Shown here: piece after piece, positions 1,855-17,223 of the stretch
Numbering within the stretch: the first letter of the stretch is position 1
How the letters are laid out: the number at the start of each line of letters is the position of its first letter
From: a virus
Direction: 5' to 3' (one strand)
Virus record (IMG/VR): IMGVR_UViG_3300044960_000555
Location: 1 to 20,618 of that record
DNA: 20,618 nucleotides
Notes under the pieces: generated by a model
Databases searched by the model: none
Seen by the model: the letters and a program-made list of their open reading frames with translations, nothing else
What the model was told of the DNA's origin: nothing
Position numbers and translations under genes: made by a program

Positions 1855-2548
1855 CACGACCCTGACCATTCCAACCCAACTTGGTAATGATGAGGATTTC
1901 GAAGTAGTTGCTCGATCATCCTCAATTCTTCCTCGTCTTCAGCTGTTTTCGAAGGGGCGGGCAGTCAACCGCGGGACTGTGCCCGTCGGTACTTATGGCC
2001 TTGTAATGGGCAAAGACTCCGTTATTCCTCTTGGTGCTTCCGTGGATGTTATTCCGCTGGCCCGCCGGCCGGAAGCGGTTGATTTTTCGAACGGCGAGGT
2101 TGTGTTTTCCTATAACGTTCGGTCTGCTTTGTTCGAGCGAATTCGGGAACTCGCCGATCAGCCCGGTGCCAATGCTCAATACGGCACAGCATTTTTATTT
2201 TTCGAGCGCCAGTCGGGGAACTTCTGCAAGTATTTTTTCGGTTCTCGCAGCACTCGTGACCTGGCGAATCAAGTGCGAGGATTTATGGCGCTTACGGAGG
2301 AGCAGATTGCTTCTCAGCCGGCTCTTGCTGGTGTCAAGCCACACGGCCCCCTGCCCATGACGATGAAGGTGGCGCTCCGGGAGAACAAAAAGGGCTCGTG
2401 GCACGTGCCTGATATTTATCCCTGTTCTGTACCCTTTACGAATCTCCCGCCCGTCGCGGTCATTGCGAAGGAGATCGAGAAATTCTTGTCCGTTAAGGAT
2501 ACCGTCGAAATTGCGGAGGAGGCACCCGTTGCCCGCCGGGCTCGGTGA
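1829..2548 (+). CDS. Phage protein of unknown function, 239 aa
   Basis: No ATG precedes the conserved-looking region in this frame. I chose GTG 1829, which has GAAGGA (1814-1819) nine bases upstream and gives a 239-residue product overlapping the ParB-like gene by 26 bases. An ATG at 1661 would overlap that gene by almost 200 bases. The protein has no signal peptide and no catalytic motif that I recognise. Its centre is dense in beta-type residues (SKGRAVNRGTVPVGTYGLVM, then LGASVDVIPLARRPEAVDF). A PHGPLPMTMKVAL stretch near 170 is followed by SWHVPDIYPCSVPFTNLPP near 195. The acidic/Arg tail could suggest a nucleic-acid or protein-binding factor, but I do not assign a function. It is followed after 8 bases by the secreted protease gene. 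Confidence 0.7.
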   Translation: MENNLASLNTTLTIPTQLGNDEDFEVVARSSSILPRLQLFSKGRAVNRGTVPVGTYGLVMGKDSVIPLGASVDVIPLARRPEAVDFSNGEVVFSYNVRSALFERIRELADQPGANAQYGTAFLFFERQSGNFCKYFFGSRSTRDLANQVRGFMALTEEQIASQPALAGVKPHGPLPMTMKVALRENKKGSWHVPDIYPCSVPFTNLPPVAVIAKEIEKFLSVKDTVEIAEEAPVARRAR

Positions 2549-2556
2549 GGGGAAAT

Positions 2557-3333
2557 ATGCAAAAATTTTCTGTTCTGATTGCTCTTTTCCTTGTTGCGGT
2601 CGTAAGCGCCGTAAGCGCGTCCGAAAGAGAGGTGATTGACTATCTCCAAGCCGTTTCCTGCTGCGTGAAGACCGGCGATGGAGAAGGTACTGGTGTTATT
2701 TTTACACGCGGCGACACGTCTTATGTCTGGACCGCCGCTCATGTCGTGGCATCGCTACGACATGAGCGGGAGGTAATTCAAGGAGGAACTAAAAAGACGA
2801 TTATCGAATTTGATGATGCCGCCATCGTTCAAGAATGCCGCGAAATTGGCAGGTGTGTCGGGGAAATCAAGATGGCGGCGAAGGTGATCCGATACTCAGA
2901 CGCCACAAAAGGGGAAGATTTAGCTGTCCTGGAGATTCGTAAGCGCAATTTTACCCGTGCGAAGGTTGAATTTGCGGAATCTCACGTACCTGAACTAGGT
3001 ACGAAAATTTATCACGTCGGGTGCCTGCTGGGTCAATTCGGGGCAAACAGCCTGACGAGCGGAATTATTTCTCAGGTTGGAAGAGTTCTTAATTTGCAAG
3101 CAGGAGGAACTGAGTTCGATCAAACGACAGCCCCAGCTTATCCCGGTTCTTCTGGTGGCGGTATTTTCTACACCGATGGGAGATATGTCGGCATGTTAGT
3201 TAGGGGTGCTGACGCTTCTTTCAATTTTATCGTTCCAATCAGACGGATGCGCGCTTGGGCCAAACGCGCAAATGTAGAGTGGGCGATGGACATTCACTCT
3301 CCTGTGATAGATGGCCCTATTGAAGTACCATGA
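2557..3333 (+). CDS. Secreted trypsin-like serine protease (S1/DegP-type fold)
   Basis: A 258-residue protein with a Sec signal peptide. A short basic start (MQK) is followed by a hydrophobic core at 4-17 and a likely cleavage after VSA (about residue 21). The trypsin-fold triad is visible: His62 in WTAAHVV, Asp121 in GEDLAVLEI and Ser199 in YPGSSGGGIF, consistent with GxSGG. No PDZ domain follows, unlike DegP/DegS. It probably cleaves proteins in the periplasm or at the envelope; the substrate is unknown. ATG 2557 follows GAGGGGA (2547-2553); a GTG at 2545 is in frame but sits on the upstream stop. The stop overlaps the next start by 4 bases, coupling it to a lipoprotein. Cys35-Cys36 and Cys94/Cys100 could form disulfides. 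Such a gene is unusual inside a phage replication operon. Confidence 0.85.
   Translation: MQKFSVLIALFLVAVVSAVSASEREVIDYLQAVSCCVKTGDGEGTGVIFTRGDTSYVWTAAHVVASLRHEREVIQGGTKKTIIEFDDAAIVQECREIGRCVGEIKMAAKVIRYSDATKGEDLAVLEIRKRNFTRAKVEFAESHVPELGTKIYHVGCLLGQFGANSLTSGIISQVGRVLNLQAGGTEFDQTTAPAYPGSSGGGIFYTDGRYVGMLVRGADASFNFIVPIRRMRAWAKRANVEWAMDIHSPVIDGPIEVP
2601..2618. repeat. Tandem CGTAAGCGC pair, part of a five-copy cluster
   Basis: CGTAAGCGC is repeated head to tail at 2601-2609 and 2610-2618. Further copies lie at 905-913 and 2938-2946 (+) and at 2288-2296 (- strand). I noticed none in the remaining 17 kb. The tandem pair encodes a repeated VSA within the protease signal peptide, so part of it could reflect coding sequence. 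Confidence 0.45.
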
Positions 3334-6137: not shown

Positions 6138-7342
6138 CAGCAGCTGACGTACAAAATATTAGAGAGCGTTTAGCCAAAGGGGAAAGGCAGCGTGATATCG
6201 CTGCTACCTTTGGGGTCAGCCGCTCATTAATCAGTGATATTGCCACCAGGCGGGCATATGCCAAAGTCGGCCCCGCTGAAACTGGGGGTCCAGAGGCTGA
6301 AATTCTGCTCCTGCGAGAGGAACTTGCGCACGCGCGGAAATATGCCAAGCATACGCTCAGATTGCAGGGCCTGCTTGGGTCGCTGGTGCGCGAAATGGAC
6401 AGCCGAATTTCGCCGCTCAAAGCGCCGACCCCACCCAAGCCAAAGAAGAAGCGGGGTGTGATCGAGGAGCACGCCGTGCTGCTGCTGTCGGACATGCACG
6501 CTGATCAAGTTGTCAGGCCGGAAGAAGTCGGCGGTTTGGAGCGATACGATTTTAACGTGGCGTGTGCGAGGGCAGAAAAGCTGGTCGATTCTATCCTAGA
6601 CTGGGCTCTGAACACACTTGGATCGACTTTTCATTTCCCGGTGCTGCATATTCTGAGCCTCGGAGACACCGGGAGTTTTGAGATTCACGACCACGATAGG
6701 CACTCATATTTCCAGTCGTCTTTTAAAGCAGCCCTGGCTATTGGTCAACTACAGGCATTAATGGTCCGCGACCTGGCGGCGCACTTTGAGCACGTCTCAT
6801 TTGTTGGGCTGAGCGGCAATCACGGTAGAAGGCACGCAGTTAAGGAGTTTGTCAGCGGGCCGGTGAACTCATGGGACTACCTGGTGCATGAGACTTGCCG
6901 GCTCTATTGTAGGGATATGAAACACGTTAACTTCGTTATCCCCAATGCCTTCAGTGTTAATTTGGCTATCAACGGGATCGGCGTCCACTGCTTTCACGGC
7001 GACGACGTGAAATCTAGCAGTGGCATCCCATTTTATAATCTGTTGCGCCGCCAGAAAGCTCTAGCGGCGCTCGGCAACGCCGGGCCGCCGATCCGTCTGA
7101 CTGTCTGCGGCCACTTTCACTTACCAGCTTCGCTGGCTGATGTTAAGACGGAGCTAATTGTTAATGGTGCGTTCCTCGGTTGTGATCAATATGCCTATAA
7201 CTCTTTCGCAGGGTATCGCGAGCCTAGCCAGCTAATTTTCGGTGTACATAAAGAGCATGGGGTAACCTGGCGATTGCCGATTAAGCTTAGGACGGCTGGA
7301 CAAGAGCGACCCCGCAGATATATTATCAATCATGCAACGTGA
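6131..7342 (+). CDS. Calcineurin-like metallophosphoesterase with N-terminal HTH
   Basis: A 403-residue protein with two modules. Residues 1-41 form a resolvase/sigma-type helix-turn-helix (KGERQRDIAATFGVSRSLIS). A charged linker (about 42-112) leads to a metallophosphoesterase domain. The metal-binding motifs are complete: D121-M-H123, GD at 178-179, GNHGR at 229-233, an HGDD near 295 and CGHFH near 330. Family members hydrolyse phosphomono- or diesters with two metals; the substrate here may be DNA or a nucleotide. The fused HTH suggests targeting to DNA. ATG 6131 is preceded by GAAGG (6119-6123). The open frame back to 5981 would overlap the upstream gene fully and was rejected. The gene overlaps the second ParB gene by 11 bases. 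Confidence 0.82.
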   Translation: MLTAADVQNIRERLAKGERQRDIAATFGVSRSLISDIATRRAYAKVGPAETGGPEAEILLLREELAHARKYAKHTLRLQGLLGSLVREMDSRISPLKAPTPPKPKKKRGVIEEHAVLLLSDMHADQVVRPEEVGGLERYDFNVACARAEKLVDSILDWALNTLGSTFHFPVLHILSLGDTGSFEIHDHDRHSYFQSSFKAALAIGQLQALMVRDLAAHFEHVSFVGLSGNHGRRHAVKEFVSGPVNSWDYLVHETCRLYCRDMKHVNFVIPNAFSVNLAINGIGVHCFHGDDVKSSSGIPFYNLLRRQKALAALGNAGPPIRLTVCGHFHLPASLADVKTELIVNGAFLGCDQYAYNSFAGYREPSQLIFGVHKEHGVTWRLPIKLRTAGQERPRRYIINHAT

Positions 7343-8168
7343 CGATTCTTACGACGTGTATCAAATACCGGTAGCTAGCATCGTCGCGGACGATGAGTTT
7401 AATTGCCGGGGCCCGATCGCGCCAGGAAGTGTCACAGAGTTGGTAGATTCCATTGCTGAGCTTGGCCTGGAGTCGCCGATACACGTGCGCCCTATTGAGG
7501 GGGACCGCTACCTGATCATTAGCGGGCATAGACGTTTCGCCGCGGTCTCTCAGCTGGGCTGGGAGAAAATTCCTTGCAGGGTCAGAAACGTAAGCCAGAA
7601 AGAGGCCCTGGTCCTCAATCTGGTAGAGAATCTAGAGCGGAAAGACCTTAACATTTTACAAGAGGCGTCCGCACTGAAGAAAATATATCCGAGCGGGGTG
7701 TCTCTCCGGCAGGCCAGCAACGAGTTACACAGGCCGACGCGCTGGGTGGCAGCAAGGCTGAAGCTGTTAACTCTCCCAGAATCAGTGCAGCAAATGGCCG
7801 CCGCCGGCTTACTGAGCAGTGACAATATCGTGGCAATTGCTAAATTGCCCCGCCAAGAACAGGAAGATGCGGCCAAAGCTATTATAGCGGCAAAGAAATC
7901 CGGAAAGAAGGCTCTGCGTGAATCCCTCCCGCCCAAATATAGGGCCACTTTTCAGGCCCGCAAAAGCAAAAATGAACTCCTGAAAATGGCGGCAAAGCTG
8001 TTAACATTAAATGTGTATGGATTCGAAACCTGGACTATATCGTGGGCGTGCGGGTATATCTCAGACGCCCAATTCCTGGAAAAGTGCCGGGAAAACGGGT
8101 TGGCGGCAAGAATTCAGCGGCTTGAACTCGCGGTCCAGCTGATGCAGCAACAGAACCAGAATGGCTAG
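7332..8168 (+). CDS. ParB-like partition/nuclease-family protein
   Basis: A 278-residue ParB. The N domain begins with IPVASIVADDEFNCRGP (12-28), followed by ELVDSIAELGLESPIHVRP (36-54), ISGHRRFAAV (63-72; the CTP-binding box II, GERRxRA type) and ENLERKDLNILQEASALK (about 98-115). A helix-turn-helix stretch (VSLRQASNELHRPTRWVAARLKLL) and a long C-terminal helix rich in Lys, Leu and Gln follow. It is much closer to canonical ParB than the protein at 979. It lies between the phosphoesterase and the polymerase with overlaps at both ends, implying co-expression with the replication genes. It may organise or load proteins on phage DNA, or regulate transcription. No ParA is present, so plasmid-like partition is not shown. 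Confidence 0.83.
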   Translation: MQRDDSYDVYQIPVASIVADDEFNCRGPIAPGSVTELVDSIAELGLESPIHVRPIEGDRYLIISGHRRFAAVSQLGWEKIPCRVRNVSQKEALVLNLVENLERKDLNILQEASALKKIYPSGVSLRQASNELHRPTRWVAARLKLLTLPESVQQMAAAGLLSSDNIVAIAKLPRQEQEDAAKAIIAAKKSGKKALRESLPPKYRATFQARKSKNELLKMAAKLLTLNVYGFETWTISWACGYISDAQFLEKCRENGLAARIQRLELAVQLMQQQNQNG

Positions 8169-10485
8169 ACTGTATTTAGATACCGAAACGTGCGGGTTGG
8201 CCGGGATGCCGGTGTTGCTCCAATACGCTATTGGAGACGGCCCCATCACTCTCTTCGAGCCGTGGAAGCGCCCGGTTAAGGAAACGCTCAGCCTGATCGA
8301 AAGTTTCTTGCAGCACGAGATTGTGGGGTTCAATCTGACTTTTGACGCATTCCAGCTAGTAAAGCTCTACACTATTTTCTCGCTCTGCCCCCCAGATTGG
8401 ATTCCAGAGGATCATATTGACGAGATAGCAGAGTTGGAAAAAGACGGGCGGGATGGGCCATGCATCAAGCCGCAGTCAGTGCTAGACCTGATGCTGTACT
8501 GCCGGAAGAATGAGTGGCAGAGCCTCATGGACCGAGACGATATCCGGGTGAAAAGAGTACCGAGTTGCATAGCGGCTGAGCTTGCAGAGGAGTTGGAAGC
8601 TCGGCTGGATATTGACCCAATCTATTTTGCCAAGCAGCGCTCGCCCAAAAAATGGAAGGTGTTCCCGCACAAGCGCGGTGGAAAAGTGGACCCAGACTTT
8701 TCTGATGTTGTCTTGATTTTCCATCCAGCAATGGGCCTGAAACACTTGGCCGAGCACGTGCTCCGCCTATCACCGGCTGCTCATTTTGAAGACATCGAAC
8801 CTGCTGCCAGGCCTATCGAACTCCCGTATGCCCCACTGGCGATAGCGGTCTCTTCGAAAGAGAGAGGCTGGGCAGTCGAGAAAGAGGGCAAGATCGTTGG
8901 CCACGCTTGGCCAGCCGTCATCAAGAGCCATATTGACCACTGGCATCAAGTGGCCCCCGCCCGCGAGTACGCTGAGAAGGATATTTATTACACCCGGGCG
9001 CTCGATGCTCATTTTCGGCACCCAACGACTGGCGACGACGACTCCACGCTGGCCTGGCAAGTGGCAGTCAGCCGTTGGCGGGGTTTTAAGATCGACAGGG
9101 AGGGGCTAAGCCGCCTTTTGGCGGATTCAATCAATGTCGTAAAAAGCTCGCCGGCAAATCCGGATAATCCCGGCCAGATTCGGACATACTTGCTCCAATA
9201 TATGGATGAGCTTGAGGCGGTCTCGCTAGCCGACACAACCAACAAAGCCAGACTGGAGTCCATAGCTAAGTGGACAGTGGATGAAGAGGAAGCTTGCACA
9301 CGCTGCTCCGGTGCTGACACAGCCTGTCTGCGCTGCGGGGGAGCAGGGAAAGTTGCGCCCGGACGACACCCGGCAGCCCTTGCCGTAGAGCGTATATTGC
9401 AGGTTAAACAGGCCGCCGCAGAGGTCAAAACGCTTAGAAAGCTTGTAAAGCTTGACCGCCTGCACCCAGATTTCAACGTGGTCGGCACTCTTTCATCCCG
9501 CATGAGCGGGACTGGGGGGCTTTCTGCTCACAGTATCAAACACACCGATGCTGTTCGGCGGCTATTCCCGCTAGCTTGGGACGGCGGGGCTCTATCGATT
9601 GGCGATTTTTCGGCTTACGAAGTGACCATCGCCGATGCCCATTACGGTGATCCTCAACTTCGACAAGACCTTTTGTCGGGGCGCAAGGTACACGCAATAT
9701 TCGGGGCCGCCATGTTTGGAGTCACCTATGAACAAGTCATGGATTCCAGGGGCTCTGATAATGATATGTACGCGAAAGGCAAGCAAGGGTGGTTTGCGAC
9801 GGCCCTGTACGGCGGCGACTACCGAACCCTGATGCGCAAATTAGGTGTGTCGGAAGAGCAAGCCACCGCTGCCTGCCAGCTGATTGCCGAGAGATATCCT
9901 GTCATTAAAGAGAAGCAAGCCAAATTACGCGAACGATTCTGCTCTATGCAGCAAGGAGTCTCCGGCGGACCTGTGACATGGCGGGAGCCTGCGGAATACG
10001 TAGAGTCCTTCCTGGGCCACAGGAGATACTTCCGGCTAGAGAATCATATCGCACGGACCATGTTCGAGTTAGCAAGCCGGTCCCCCAAAGAGTGGACCCG
10101 GTTCCAAGGCACAGTAACTAGAGTACGAGGTAAGCCGCAGACAGTCTGCGGTGCTACGGCTAGCGCGCTCTATGGGGCCGCCTTCACAGTACAGGCTTCA
10201 AATATGCGGGCAGCTGCGAACCACGAAATCCAGTCGCCGGGGGCTCAGTTGGTCAAAAATATTCAGCGTCGGGTCTGGGACGCCATTCAGCCCGCCGGGG
10301 TTCACCCCCTCAGGGTCAGTTTAATGAATGTACATGACGAATTAATCGCTGTCTCTTCGCCTGATGCTGTCGAAGACGTGGCTCAGGTGATCCTCGGCAC
10401 CGTGGAAGAGCTTCGGGAGAAGGTGCCACTTTTGGCTATCGATTGGCGAAAGAATGTGCGGTCATGGGGCGAGAAGAATGTCTGA
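8161..10485 (+). CDS. Family A DNA polymerase with 3'-5' exonuclease and zinc-knuckle insertion
   Basis: A 774-residue replicative-type DNA polymerase. The proofreading exonuclease motifs are intact: Exo I D7-T-E9, Exo II N58..D62 (GFNLTFDA) and Exo III Y270-xxx-D274. A CxxC-x6-CxxC zinc knuckle (C379, C382, C389, C392; ending CLRCGGAG) lies between exonuclease and polymerase domains. Polymerase motif A is DFSAYE (482-487; catalytic D482), motif B is KGKQGWFATALYG (539-551) and motif C is VHDE (724-727; catalytic D726). Motif A is divergent from DYSQIELR, and motif B seems one residue longer between the conserved aromatic and Tyr-Gly than in E. coli Pol I. There is no 5' nuclease domain. It copies phage DNA with the primase-helicase at 17228. 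The start overlaps the ParB gene by 8 bases. Confidence 0.92.
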   Translation: MARLYLDTETCGLAGMPVLLQYAIGDGPITLFEPWKRPVKETLSLIESFLQHEIVGFNLTFDAFQLVKLYTIFSLCPPDWIPEDHIDEIAELEKDGRDGPCIKPQSVLDLMLYCRKNEWQSLMDRDDIRVKRVPSCIAAELAEELEARLDIDPIYFAKQRSPKKWKVFPHKRGGKVDPDFSDVVLIFHPAMGLKHLAEHVLRLSPAAHFEDIEPAARPIELPYAPLAIAVSSKERGWAVEKEGKIVGHAWPAVIKSHIDHWHQVAPAREYAEKDIYYTRALDAHFRHPTTGDDDSTLAWQVAVSRWRGFKIDREGLSRLLADSINVVKSSPANPDNPGQIRTYLLQYMDELEAVSLADTTNKARLESIAKWTVDEEEACTRCSGADTACLRCGGAGKVAPGRHPAALAVERILQVKQAAAEVKTLRKLVKLDRLHPDFNVVGTLSSRMSGTGGLSAHSIKHTDAVRRLFPLAWDGGALSIGDFSAYEVTIADAHYGDPQLRQDLLSGRKVHAIFGAAMFGVTYEQVMDSRGSDNDMYAKGKQGWFATALYGGDYRTLMRKLGVSEEQATAACQLIAERYPVIKEKQAKLRERFCSMQQGVSGGPVTWREPAEYVESFLGHRRYFRLENHIARTMFELASRSPKEWTRFQGTVTRVRGKPQTVCGATASALYGAAFTVQASNMRAAANHEIQSPGAQLVKNIQRRVWDAIQPAGVHPLRVSLMNVHDELIAVSSPDAVEDVAQVILGTVEELREKVPLLAIDWRKNVRSWGEKNV

Positions 10486-11684: not shown

Positions 11685-12263
11685 ATGTTATTTCGCAAGA
11701 CCAAAACTCAACGCATATTTGTCGATATAGACGACGTGCTAAATGATTTCACCATCCACGCATTGCGCCGTGCCGGCTGCGACATTTTATCTTACGATCA
11801 GTACCCAGCAGAGTGCCGTTTTGATATCATAGCGGCTGCTAACAAAATATTAGGACATGATAAATATCGATCGAAAGCAGATTTTTGGAATCTGCTTGAT
11901 ATTATGTTCTGGGCTCATTTGCCCACGAACGAACTGACTCAGCCAATCATGGATTGGGCTGCCCGGCAAGTTGGAGCCAATAACGTATTCTTGCTGACTT
12001 CTCCCACCATAGACCCCTTATGCCTAGCGGGCAAGCTGTATTGGATTAAACAGAATCTGCCGACTGTTTATCATCGCCAGTACGCTATCACCCCCAGGAA
12101 ATTTGTCTGCGCCCAGCCGGGGCATCTACTAATAGACGACAATGAAGAAAATTGCAAGGTATGGTTAAAGAACGGCGGCCAAGTAAAAATGATCCCGCGC
12201 CCGTGGAATTCAGCCTGGCTGAGACATGACAAGACTTTTTCTTCAATCGCCTCAAATATTTAA
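11685..12263 (+). CDS. HAD-family 5'(3')-deoxyribonucleotidase-like enzyme
   Basis: A 192-residue HAD phosphatase. Motif I is FVDIDDVLND, with nucleophile Asp14 and Asp16. Motif II is LLTSPT near 103. Motif IV is LLIDDNEENC, with Asp151-Asp152, and a Lys-containing stretch (AITPRKFVC) lies before it. This order and length match 5'-nucleotidase C/deoxyribonucleotidase-type enzymes, which dephosphorylate deoxynucleoside monophosphates. In a phage it could rebalance dNMP pools or remove host nucleotides. It begins one base after the sigma-like gene's stop and overlaps the ligase-like gene by 38 bases. The exact substrate is not shown. Confidence 0.78.
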   Translation: MLFRKTKTQRIFVDIDDVLNDFTIHALRRAGCDILSYDQYPAECRFDIIAAANKILGHDKYRSKADFWNLLDIMFWAHLPTNELTQPIMDWAARQVGANNVFLLTSPTIDPLCLAGKLYWIKQNLPTVYHRQYAITPRKFVCAQPGHLLIDDNEENCKVWLKNGGQVKMIPRPWNSAWLRHDKTFSSIASNI

Positions 12264-12921
12264 CGCCAGCCGACATAATGTGTCGGGCTGGTACTGCTAC
12301 CAGGAGCCGGAGATACCAGGGAAGCGCGCTTTCTGGGACGGAGGCGTCACCAGAGGGCTACAAGCACTAGAGGTACCGTGGACAAAGCCCAAGAAAAAGA
12401 AAGCAACTGGACTGTGGTCTGAGGAGGCTGAGATAATCGACGCCCCCGACTGGTTTTTGAATCGTTTGCCAAGCTGCCCATTGGATGGAGTCATATGCCC
12501 AAAATATATGGGGGCAAAAGACTGGCAAGACTATGAGTACCAAGTATTTGCGTCCCCGCCATTGCAAGGTATCTTTACTCGTGGCTATATCGACAATTTG
12601 GGCATTTACATAGGACCTGTGGTTGAGCAATTCTTTCTTGCGAGAGCCCAGAAAATAGACGGTTTCAAATATCTGAAATACGCATCGGTGGAGTTTGAGC
12701 TTGAGTGGCTGTCCTGGCAAATTTACTCTCAAGATGACGTGTGTTACCTAGCTTACCATAAGCTTCTGCCGGAGAGCGAACTCAATTGCGCGAGAGCCTT
12801 AGCACAGCTGGCTTTGGGTGTGGGGCGGACATGGGTATTAAGAGACCCGGACGGGCAATGGAGGCCTGTTAGTCATCCCGGTGTTTTAAGGTTCGCTCCG
12901 GGACTCAGTATAGACGAGTAA
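12226..12921 (+). CDS. ATP-dependent DNA-ligase-like protein lacking catalytic motifs
   Basis: A 231-residue protein whose layout follows a compact ATP-dependent DNA ligase adenylation domain. It opens with SRHNVSGW (15-22), matching the usual KHDVSGW lead-in. The motif I position reads EIPGKRAFWDGG (29-40), where KxDGxRAxWDG is expected, so the nucleotidyl lysine is Glu. TGLWSE (61-66) and APDWFLNRLPSCPLDG (73-88) match motif III context, but the usual Glu after LDG is Val89. WVLRDPD (203-209) matches the end of motif IV, and VLRFAPG (220-226) replaces motif V LLKVKP. It is an open frame without stops. It may be a catalytically dead regulatory or structural paralogue; an active ligase may lie outside the window. 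The start overlaps the upstream gene by 38 bases. Confidence 0.65.
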   Translation: MTRLFLQSPQIFNASRHNVSGWYCYQEPEIPGKRAFWDGGVTRGLQALEVPWTKPKKKKATGLWSEEAEIIDAPDWFLNRLPSCPLDGVICPKYMGAKDWQDYEYQVFASPPLQGIFTRGYIDNLGIYIGPVVEQFFLARAQKIDGFKYLKYASVEFELEWLSWQIYSQDDVCYLAYHKLLPESELNCARALAQLALGVGRTWVLRDPDGQWRPVSHPGVLRFAPGLSIDE

Positions 12922-12923
12922 GC

Positions 12924-13889
12924 ATGCGAAAGATAAAGCATTTATCGCCGTCTAGCTTGGCGCTTTGGTATTCTGACCGGGAAGCATTCTATTGCACCTA
13001 CCTGGCGGAATGTCGGGCACCACGCCTCCCTCAGCAGCTGCCGGCAGCTGCCGGGTCGGCATTTGACGCAAGGGTGAAAAGCAAGTTGATGGAAGACGTT
13101 TTTGGTGAGTCAGGGAAATATGAATACCAAGCTCTGTTTGAAGCGTCTGTAGAGCCTCAAAATAGAGACGTAGCCGGGCCGGCGGGTGATCATATTTTCG
13201 AGTGTTACGTACAGTCTGGTGCTTATGACGATATTTTGGCGAAACTGAAGAAAAGCAGCAGCCGCCCCAGGCTAGAATTCACGGCCGAGGGAACGATAGC
13301 TGGCGTGCCAATGGTCGGCAAGCCTGATTTGCTTTTTTCAATCGACGGCGTAGACATTTGCCACGACTGGAAGGTATCGGGCTACTACTCTCAGTATGGC
13401 ATATCGCCGAGCAAAGGGTACTACCTTTGCCGAGACGCACCGGTTAGTGATAAACCCAGCCGATACCACCTTAAGGCGCATCCAGATTACTCTCCAGTAG
13501 ACTATCGGGGATTGACGATCAACGCCAATTATTTAGAGGATTCAAATCCAGCGTGGGCAGCACAGCTGGTGATTTACGCCTGGCTCATGGGAGAGCCGCC
13601 AGGGTCGGATTTTGTGCTCTCAATTGACGAGATAGTAGGCCGCCCTGGCGCTGATCGACCACTGCTACGCACTGCACACTATCTCGCCCGATCCTCCAAA
13701 GGGTTTCAGGACAGGCTGCTTGCCAAAATACAAAGCGCTTGGTACGCTATAGAGAGTGGGCATATTTTTACGTGGCTAGACAGGAAAGAAAGTGATGAAA
13801 AATGCGAGGTGTTAGAAAGAGCCGCCGTCAGCATGCACTTCCTGGACTCAACTACGCCCAAGAAGAAGTTCTCGGGGAAGCTATGTTAA
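12924..13889 (+). CDS. PD-(D/E)XK nuclease (RecB/Cas4-like)
   Basis: A 321-residue protein. The nuclease core is visible: GSAFDARVK near 44-52 (RecB motif I usually has GTxxH), GKPDLLF with Asp135, HDWK with Asp148 and Lys150, and QLVIYAWLMG with Gln214 and Tyr218 (the QxxxY motif of RecB-type exonucleases). It probably acts on DNA ends in recombination or host DNA breakdown. ATG 12924 lies two bases after the upstream stop, without a strong ribosome site. Cas4-type iron-sulfur cysteines are not evident in the expected C-terminal cluster. It overlaps the GNAT gene by 7 bases. Confidence 0.85.
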   Translation: MRKIKHLSPSSLALWYSDREAFYCTYLAECRAPRLPQQLPAAAGSAFDARVKSKLMEDVFGESGKYEYQALFEASVEPQNRDVAGPAGDHIFECYVQSGAYDDILAKLKKSSSRPRLEFTAEGTIAGVPMVGKPDLLFSIDGVDICHDWKVSGYYSQYGISPSKGYYLCRDAPVSDKPSRYHLKAHPDYSPVDYRGLTINANYLEDSNPAWAAQLVIYAWLMGEPPGSDFVLSIDEIVGRPGADRPLLRTAHYLARSSKGFQDRLLAKIQSAWYAIESGHIFTWLDRKESDEKCEVLERAAVSMHFLDSTTPKKKFSGKLC

Positions 13890-15381: not shown

Positions 15382-16296
15382 ATGTCTGAAAAACTCAAAA
15401 ACAGAAGCAGGTCCACGCTATCGGCTTCGATTGATAATACGCAAACGAGCATTTCGGTAGCTGATGGCAGCCAATTTCCTTCTTCTGGCCGCTTCCGGAT
15501 TAGAATCGACGACGAACTTTTGGTGGTAACTGCTCGGAGTGGAAACACGCTAACAGTCGAGCGAGGCGCAGAGGGGACCACAGCCGCCAGCCATTTGGTG
15601 GGGGCTACCGTCTCCCATGTCCTCACGTATGAGGGATTGCGAAGCTATCTGAGGAACAATATTTATTATGTTAATTCAGGTCGCCCGTCACTTTCGGAAA
15701 TGACAGATACCAGCGGCAACTTGTTGTCCAAAACTGACTTTACCGCTGTTAATCAGGGATCAAGAACTTACGATGATCAATTGGGCGGGCTTATCATCAC
15801 TCAGCCCAGTCACGGAGCTTCCGATAATTGGTTCTTACTGACTCGCTCTGCTCCATCTACCCCATATAGCGTTATTGCTGCAACCAGGGGCATAGCGGTA
15901 AACACGAATTCTACGGCGGCCCTATATTGGGGCATCGGGTTCAGAGAGTCTGGGACAGGTAAATTTACTCAGACTATTTTGGGTATTAGCACAAACAACG
16001 GCGGCCTTAGATTATTAAATCAAAATTGGAATTCGCCAACGTCATTTTCAGCTACTAATCTGACATCCTCGCTTTTAATAAACTCAGATATCCAATGGCT
16101 AAAAATCCGCGACGACGGAACTAATTTAATCTTTTACCTTGGTAACGACGGATTGAACTGGATTGAAATTTATAGTGTTGGACGAACTAATTTTATGACA
16201 GGCGGTCCGAACCAGGTGTTCGTCATAAGTCAGCATTTTAATTCACAGCACACTGGTTATGTGACCGTCCTTCACTGGAGCGAAATTAGTGGTTAG
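15382..16296 (+). CDS. Virion-type (tail or receptor-binding-like) protein, copy 1
   Basis: A 304-residue protein. The N part (about 20-85) is a short beta domain (SISVADGSQFPSSGRFRIRI, then NTLTVERGAEGTTAASH) of a kind widespread in phage tail and fibre proteins, where it often repeats before adhesive domains. The C part (about 125-304), with TYDDQLGGLIIT, TRSAPSTPYSV, GIGFRESGTGKF, IRDDGTNLIFYLG and NGLNWIEIYSVG-type strands, looks like a jelly-roll/lectin-like fold. It could bind a host-surface glycan. The start has AGAGGA (15371-15376) five bases before ATG. A diverged tandem copy follows after 9 bases. Its place among replication genes is unusual. Confidence 0.72.
   Translation: MSEKLKNRSRSTLSASIDNTQTSISVADGSQFPSSGRFRIRIDDELLVVTARSGNTLTVERGAEGTTAASHLVGATVSHVLTYEGLRSYLRNNIYYVNSGRPSLSEMTDTSGNLLSKTDFTAVNQGSRTYDDQLGGLIITQPSHGASDNWFLLTRSAPSTPYSVIAATRGIAVNTNSTAALYWGIGFRESGTGKFTQTILGISTNNGGLRLLNQNWNSPTSFSATNLTSSLLINSDIQWLKIRDDGTNLIFYLGNDGLNWIEIYSVGRTNFMTGGPNQVFVISQHFNSQHTGYVTVLHWSEISG
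15445..15593 (+). repeat. 149-bp near-identical segment, copy 1
   Basis: Aligned without gaps to 16372-16520 (offset 927), this segment has 10 differences in 149 bases, about 93% identity by eye. All ten are silent. It encodes the N-terminal beta domain of both tail-like proteins, and the surrounding sequence is much more diverged. Confidence 0.85.
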
Positions 16297-16305
16297 GAGA
16301 CAAAC

Positions 16306-17223
16306 ATGCCTACAGAAAAGCTGAAAAATGACAGCAGGTCTACGTTATCATCGTCAATCACCAACTCGGCGACGAGCATTTCGGTGGCTGATGGCAGCCA
16401 ATTTCCTTCTTCTGGCCGCTTCCGAATTAGAATCGACGACGAACTTTTGGTGGTGACAGCCAGAAGCGGAAACACGTTGACAGTCGAGCGAGGCGCAGAG
16501 GGGACCACAGCCGCCAGCCACTCTTCTGGGGCTGACGTGGTTCACGTTCTCACTTACGGGGGCTTGCAGCGATACCTGAGGGATAGTTTTTATTTCGCTG
16601 ACACCGGCAGGCCTCCTTATGGCAGAATGCTCAGCACTAGTAATGCCATCCTAACTAAGAATGACTTCACAGCCGTCAATCAGGGCACCCGATCTTACGA
16701 CGATCAGCTCGGCGGGCTGATTATTACTTTGACAACACAGGGTGCTTCAAATAACTATTTTCTTCTGACGCGCTCCGCCCCATCTACGCCATACAGCGTT
16801 ACTGCTGCCGGGAGAGTGAGCAGTATAAACACAGCCTCTTCAGCCGCAACTGGTTGGGGTATTGGATTTAGAGAATCCTCTACAGGTAAATTCCATCACT
16901 TTAATTTACTCCATGTGCCAACTGATACTGGGTTTAAGCTCCGTGTCCAGAATATGGACTCCCCGACAACAACGAATTCGGGTCCGTTTACATCGTCCTT
17001 GGTCCCGGCAACTGATATCAGTTGGTTAAGAATCAGAGACGACGGCACAAACTTGACCTTTCACTATAGTTCTGATGGGATAAATTTTATCCAAGCGCAT
17101 TCTCTAGGCCGAACGACGTTTTTAGCAAGTGGACCTAATCAGGTCATCATATCGAGCCAAAATTTTAATAGCAGTGCCGAGGCCTATATTAATATTCTGA
17201 ACTGGATCGAAACGAGCGGTTAG
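16306..17223 (+). CDS. Virion-type (tail or receptor-binding-like) protein, copy 2
   Basis: A 305-residue paralogue of the upstream protein. The N beta domain (about 20-80) is identical in protein over the shared segment, while the C domain keeps the same scaffold but many surface residues differ: TYDDQLGGLIIT becomes SYDDQLGGLIIT, with GIGFRESSTGKFHHF, RIRDDGTNLTFHYS and IQAHSLGRTTFLAS. A TAGGAG (16294-16299) supports ATG 16306. The pair resembles a duplication followed by specialisation for two ligands or receptors, with the N domain as the particle or partner attachment module. The stop is 4 bases before the primase gene. Confidence 0.72.
   Translation: MPTEKLKNDSRSTLSSSITNSATSISVADGSQFPSSGRFRIRIDDELLVVTARSGNTLTVERGAEGTTAASHSSGADVVHVLTYGGLQRYLRDSFYFADTGRPPYGRMLSTSNAILTKNDFTAVNQGTRSYDDQLGGLIITLTTQGASNNYFLLTRSAPSTPYSVTAAGRVSSINTASSAATGWGIGFRESSTGKFHHFNLLHVPTDTGFKLRVQNMDSPTTTNSGPFTSSLVPATDISWLRIRDDGTNLTFHYSSDGINFIQAHSLGRTTFLASGPNQVIISSQNFNSSAEAYINILNWIETSG
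16372..16520 (+). repeat. 149-bp near-identical segment, copy 2
   Basis: This is the partner of 15445-15593. The silent-only differences indicate strong protein-level constraint, recent duplication with conversion, or both. Confidence 0.85.

Follow-up and report, generated by a model that had tools for sequence, protein, structure and literature searches.

The 231-amino-acid open reading frame (ORF) at 12226-12921 (+) of the 20.6-kb stretch of viral DNA analysed here (the window) is, judged by its sequence, a divergent orthologue of the ATP-dependent DNA ligases of the Lig E type, from which nearly all catalytic positions and the entire C-terminal OB domain have disappeared. We think it probable that the protein has been retained as a pseudoenzyme, whose domain now serves the viral replication machinery by binding and not by catalysis. 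The ORF begins with ATG and is free of internal stops; its first 38 nt lie within the end of the upstream nucleotidase-like gene, and only 2 nt separate its stop from the ATG of the downstream nuclease-like gene (Table 1).

Homology and genomic position

Since searches of Pfam and PHROGs were both empty, even at E = 1, the protein is overlooked by these databases. No match was obtained by tblastn against phages or by exact 8-mers against viral and genome contigs, and a weak tblastn match to Enterobacter phage KKP_3263 (E = 4) was judged to be due to chance. Relatives were found solely through an 83-residue probe for the intact ligase family, whose matches were independently confirmed in their own right. 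The probe led to 31 loci in uncultivated viruses, with full ligases of about 250-440 amino acids read from the DNA. These relatives match DNA_ligase_A_M and DNA_ligase_OB_2 in Pfam and phrog_114 (ATP-dependent DNA ligase) in PHROGs, and the best solved relatives of the viral ligase profile are Lig E structures. When the profile was built from 29 related viral ligases with the query excluded, it matched the window protein with 125 bits (E = 2e-37), compared to at most 4 bits for 999 shuffled controls. The match covers ligase positions 3-244 of 356, running end to end as far as motif V with the ligase landmarks in order, as the original prediction had claimed. An adenylation-domain HMM (E = 5e-40) and tblastn comparisons with the relatives (E = 1e-14 to 7e-27) gave matches as well. 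Identity to the intact ligases of the closer relatives is 31-38%, with no more than 25% in the C-terminal half.

The genomic setting is that of the ligase gene of this virus group. The DNA polymerase of the window is also encoded in 26 of the 29 viral records with a ligase (best full-length matches, 40-51% identity), and about 20 records share the order helicase, phosphoesterase-like, ParB, polymerase, VRR-NUC-like, sigma/HTH, nucleotidase, ligase, nuclease-like, acetyltransferase and methyltransferase. This order varies by the occasional gain or loss of a gene, and the ORF sits in the ligase slot. Because the slot is conserved and each record carrying a member of the family holds one ligase copy, the ORF is most likely the orthologue and not an extra paralogue. 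No second ligase or OB domain was found in any ORF of the window; a split ligase was rejected, the OB domain being missing from every one of these ORFs. The window is a 20.6-kb fragment and relatives are often 50-130 kb long, and a second ligase may lie outside it. The records of the closest polymerase relatives (L054 and L055) stop before the ligase slot.

Several other observations were made along the way. The adjoining of ParB and polymerase is conserved across the virus group, and the window encodes two ParB-like proteins (ParB_N plus HTH; 979-1854 and 7332-8168, both +) in one 20-kb viral segment. Members of the ligase family were also seen on contigs from bins assigned to Planctomycetota and Chloroflexi (L295-L297), which gives hints about hosts; one of them (L296:5001-5759), on a Planctomycetota contig of 444 kb, may belong to an integrated virus. 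Two adjacent window genes (15382-16296 and 16306-17223, +) encode proteins of 304-305 amino acids that are nearly identical over an N-terminal stretch (SVADGSQFPSSGRFRIRIDDELLVVTARSGNTLTVERGAEGTTAASH) and resemble each other in their C-terminal parts; by this resemblance the pair is a tandem duplication. The gene at 2545-3333 (+) encodes a trypsin-like serine protease that may have a signal peptide and of which, among the loci compared gene by gene, a homologue was seen in L054 and L055. Finally, a short, repetitive ORF rich in Gly, Asp and Tyr (GYGYGYFDGDGDGFGHNGYGNGNG; 32-292, +), which overlaps another frame, could encode a small protein or could be an artefact of low complexity.

Table 1. 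Positions in the window of the ORF in the ligase slot, its motifs and its neighbours.
Feature	Position	Strand	Remarks
DNA polymerase A	8161..10485	+	about 50% identity to the polymerase of viruses with an intact ligase
5'-nucleotidase-like gene	11685..12263	+	precedes the ligase slot in several relatives
ORF in the ligase slot	12226..12921	+	identified by ORF reading, ligase profile and adenylation-domain HMM
Motif I region GWYCYQEPEIPGKRAFWD	12286..12339	+	2-residue insertion; Lys to E29, Asp to P31; Gly32 and Arg34 kept
Family-specific insert and TGLW (residues 38-64)	12337..12417	+	well kept; basic loop KPKKKK
Conserved AMP-contacting Arg and next Gly	12421..12429	+	SRYG to SEEA: R to E66, G to A68
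Motif III scar	12481..12492	+	LDG kept, followed by a 13-residue deletion that takes ELWAGRGxFQ and the motif Glu
Motif IIIa region YQVFASPP	12538..12561	+	aromatic F108 kept
Stray KIDG (residues 143-146)	12652..12663	+	loop between two helices; off motif I in the alignment
Motif IV region	12820..12855	+	GEG to GRT, Glu to R201; LRDP kept
Motif V	12886..12900	+	LKYKP to LRFAP: K to R222, K to A224
Stop codon and 2-nt gap	12919..12923	+	place of the OB domain (about 110 aa) in relatives
Conserved downstream neighbour	12924..13889	+	probably PD-(D/E)xK nuclease-like, from GKPD...DWK; no Pfam match

What is lost and what is kept

Of the features of an ATP-dependent DNA ligase (Lig E type / phrog_114), sequence homology of the adenylation domain is present, and the motif I Lys, the motif III Glu, the motif IV Glu, the motif V lysines and the C-terminal OB domain are missing. 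The KLDG of motif I has become EIPG, and residues 1-32 contain no Lys at all. Among the distinct homologues covering each position, the KxDG Lys is found in 101 of 101, the motif III Glu in 104 of 104, and the motif IV Glu and each of the two motif V lysines in 105 of 105. Since Lys and Glu are invariant in these 101-105 homologues, the catalytic loss is unique to one virus (n = 1). The original prediction was right that the nucleotidyl lysine (now E29), the motif III Glu (part of a deletion that took 12 other residues too) and the motif V lysines are gone. Its statement that every catalytic position is changed holds for nearly all of them and is slightly too strong, R34 and F108 being kept, and it had missed the absence of the whole OB domain, of which no remnant follows the stop in any frame.

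The losses are concentrated at the active site. Where active relatives agree in 95% or more of cases at a column, the window protein differs at 7 of the 8 columns that contact AMP or metal versus 8 of the 31 others (Fisher p = 0.003), with the contact class derived from a paper on one Lig E; at other conservation cut-offs, p ranged from 0.002 to 0.008. In the Ame-Lig/DNA structure, the equivalents of most of the lost residues touch AMP or the nick phosphate, and the Lig E OB domain makes the main contacts to DNA, so key that mutating four OB residues abolished DNA binding (PMC6144786). By known ligase chemistry, these changes strongly imply that the protein would neither adenylate itself nor seal nicks.

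Much of the scaffold has survived. The family insert retains 9 of 11 consensus columns (residues 38-60), and the surviving N-terminal pattern reads FWDGG-TRG--EVPW-basic loop-ATGLWS, then APDWFLN-LP--PLDG. Three pocket residues are still present, namely Gly32 and R34 of motif I and F108 of motif IIIa; the motif I Arg contacts the ribose in the Ame-Lig/DNA structure (PMC6144786). The structural search by which the original prediction was to be checked also went in its favour. AlphaFold2, given an alignment of 68 sequences, predicted a confident nucleotidyltransferase domain (pLDDT 93.4, pTM 0.89), in a model that leans on the alignment of active ligases, a single-sequence run having been poor and uninformative. 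The nearest solved structures to this model are those of Lig E, with the match confined to the adenylation domain (about 160 residues, Z 15.5-16.2; Foldseek E 9e-8), which places the protein in the nucleotidyltransferase fold as modelled. The scaffold is thus kept and the catalytic sites are gone, as in a pseudoenzyme.

A Foldseek lead to an uncharacterized Erwinia phage protein of 210 amino acids was set aside, because two genes near that length were read and neither was a clear ligase. The uncharacterized gp49 of Erwinia phage pEp_SNUABM_08 (L300:46810-47442, -; 210 aa) equals in length a BFVD entry from the same phage. This entry, equated with gp49 by length only, matched the window model weakly (E 0.008), and the model comparison suggests that it is possibly another OB-less protein of the nucleotidyltransferase fold.

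Retention or decay

The ligase branch of the query measures 2.09 substitutions per site, versus 0.69 for the polymerase and 0.76 for the downstream nuclease-like gene, and is 2-3 times its expected length. Identity of the ligase to its relatives is 0.344, versus 0.474 expected from polymerase divergence, which amounts to about 62 excess replacements. A neutral simulation of that many replacements, a simple model applied to one genome with in-frame indels uncounted, left the frame without a stop with a probability of about 0.008. No stop or frameshift breaks the ORF, both indels in constant regions (+2 and -13 residues) are in frame, the coding-frame score (0.105) is like that of the neighbouring genes (range 0.055-0.135), and codon statistics are normal. 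The earlier impression of a frame intact through selection therefore gains support. This was not so for a conserved loss of Lys and Glu among relatives, which would have supported the original prediction. Every sampled relative with an intact ligase gene has an intact active site, so that on present data the dead form occurs in one genome only and the catalytic loss is not common to several genomes, as it would be in an established pseudoenzyme. Polymerase- and nuclease-based scans for closer relatives produced no second dead ligase, and a scan for WFLN-LP-LDG followed by a residue other than Glu gave one spurious stretch and no dead ligase.

How such a gene decays in nature can be seen in a related virus, which serves as a control for the window gene. 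At L083:14976-15218 (+), in the same slot, lies a ligase pseudogene that reads MARREFLQLAGAYKPDKHKNGG*FVSEKLDGTR... before a frameshift; its N-terminus, KLDG and catalytic lysine are intact, it is broken by an in-frame TGA and the frameshift, and the 61.9-kb record has no other match to the ligase. Because this gene is broken yet keeps the catalytic lysine, decay in the virus group can look unlike the window gene.

The gene may instead be dying, a less probable but serious possibility. In this case the ligase became dispensable, catalysis and the OB domain went, and what is left of the ORF now drifts with little or no constraint. That the frame is still open would be due to chance, or to translational coupling in a tightly packed operon, in which a stop would impair translation of the next gene. 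The ligase seems dispensable in this virus group, since several records of 42-76 kb (G031, G047, G048 and G049), which may be incomplete, have none; the broken pseudogene in the same slot, the accelerated ligase branch, which also fits relaxed constraint, and the lack of a dead form shared with relatives all agree with decay. However, about 62 excess replacements without a stop or frameshift are hard to reconcile with neutrality, scaffold and family-insert residues are kept, and the pseudogene has the opposite pattern, a stop and a frameshift with its KLDG preserved. Retention as a pseudoenzyme is favoured because homology, conserved slot and fold coincide with losses concentrated at AMP and metal sites, and because the insert is kept, the frame has stayed open, the indels are in frame and the coding score is normal. 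The same reading is weakened by the single genome, the long ligase branch and the 25% identity of the C-terminal half, and by a contact class taken from one Lig E paper and a structural model leaning on active ligases.

The nick sensor or decoy of the original prediction, a dead domain still binding nicks or occupying ligase partners, now appears unlikely. The K25A mutant of Lig E still binds DNA, isolated T7 ligase domains bind duplex (PMC6144786), and the basic loop is kept in the insert, but the OB domain whose alteration at four positions suffices to abolish DNA binding by Lig E (PMC6144786) is absent, the Glu, the Lys and one Arg that contact nick and AMP have been lost, and the net charge is -3 versus a mean of +2.4 in the adenylation domain of relatives. 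With the clamp and most nick-contacting residues missing, a sensor is poorly supported. It is more improbable still that the protein is an active nucleotidyltransferase using K33 or K143 (of KIDG), or one completed by a trans partner that provides the OB domain and the missing residues. A KIDG is present and Gly32, Arg34 and the pocket aromatic F108 are kept, but this lone KxDG does not align with motif I. It lies in a loop between helices, far from that motif, and by estimate would arise by chance in about 5% of random 231-mers; moreover, the motif III and IV Glu and the motif V Lys are lost too, and the window supplies neither an OB domain nor a second ligase. That errors of assembly or sequencing have disguised an intact ligase is hardly conceivable even for a single metagenomic record: the changes are scattered across the entire gene, a frameshift artefact is rejected by the absence of KxDG, DGE and LKxK from all other forward frames, and the C-terminus ends cleanly just 2 nt ahead of the next gene, where none of the frames retains a trace of the OB domain.

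Under the preferred reading of a retained pseudoenzyme, the starting point would be a Lig E-type ligase between the polymerase and nuclease-like genes of an uncultivated virus group. In the lineage of the window, adenylation chemistry and the OB clamp would have been lost, and the adenylation-domain scaffold and family-specific insert kept. The retained N-terminal face (WDGGVTRG...VPW...KPKKKKATGLWS...APDWFL..LP..PLDG) would most likely contact a protein partner or nucleic acid. Since the catalytic parts and DNA clamp are lost and the rest of the fold is kept, re-use for a non-enzymatic job is probable. There is perhaps an even chance that a replicative ligase has turned into a single-domain, OB-less pseudoenzyme that works in the viral replisome as a binding factor or a regulator.

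Comparison with known systems

Catalytically dead relatives are well known among kinases and other enzymes. To our knowledge there is no such case among DNA ligases, and none was found in the part of the literature covered by our search. If the proposal is true, a ligase has been caught turning into a non-enzyme where it stood, in the original slot of its operon and with no duplicate. Across related viruses this one slot exists in three states, as a working enzyme, a broken pseudogene and an intact but erased protein, and these three states make it a tractable case in which to ask what, other than nick sealing, keeps a ligase domain in a viral replication operon.

The window protein resembles Lig E (Psy-Lig 4D05, Ame-Lig 6GDR and the N. 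gonorrhoeae enzyme 8U6X) in its adenylation fold (Z 15.5-16.2), the order of its landmarks, the motif I Gly and Arg, and the motif IIIa Phe. It differs in lacking the catalytic Lys, the motif III and IV Glu, the motif V Lys and the OB domain, and in carrying an insert specific to the viral family. With the intact ligases of its own virus group (L003-L031 and L134-L213, which match phrog_114) it shares the orthologous slot and the insert FWDGG..RG..VPW..ATGLWS, but these ligases all have, where the contig covers them, the two Glu and three Lys of the active site (K, E, E, K, K) and the OB domain. The L083 pseudogene occupies the same slot in the same viral group and has likewise lost ligase function, but there KLDG is kept and the loss lies in an in-frame TGA and a frameshift. 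The m3G-cap-binding domain of snurportin-1 (1XK5) has a nucleotidyltransferase-like fold that binds without catalysis and without an OB domain. It matched the window protein with Z 12.7 in a comparison of fold alone; snurportin-1 is eukaryotic and derives from the capping-enzyme branch, and the likeness is one of fold. By analogy, this domain may be taken as a precedent for the non-catalytic re-use of the ligase fold.
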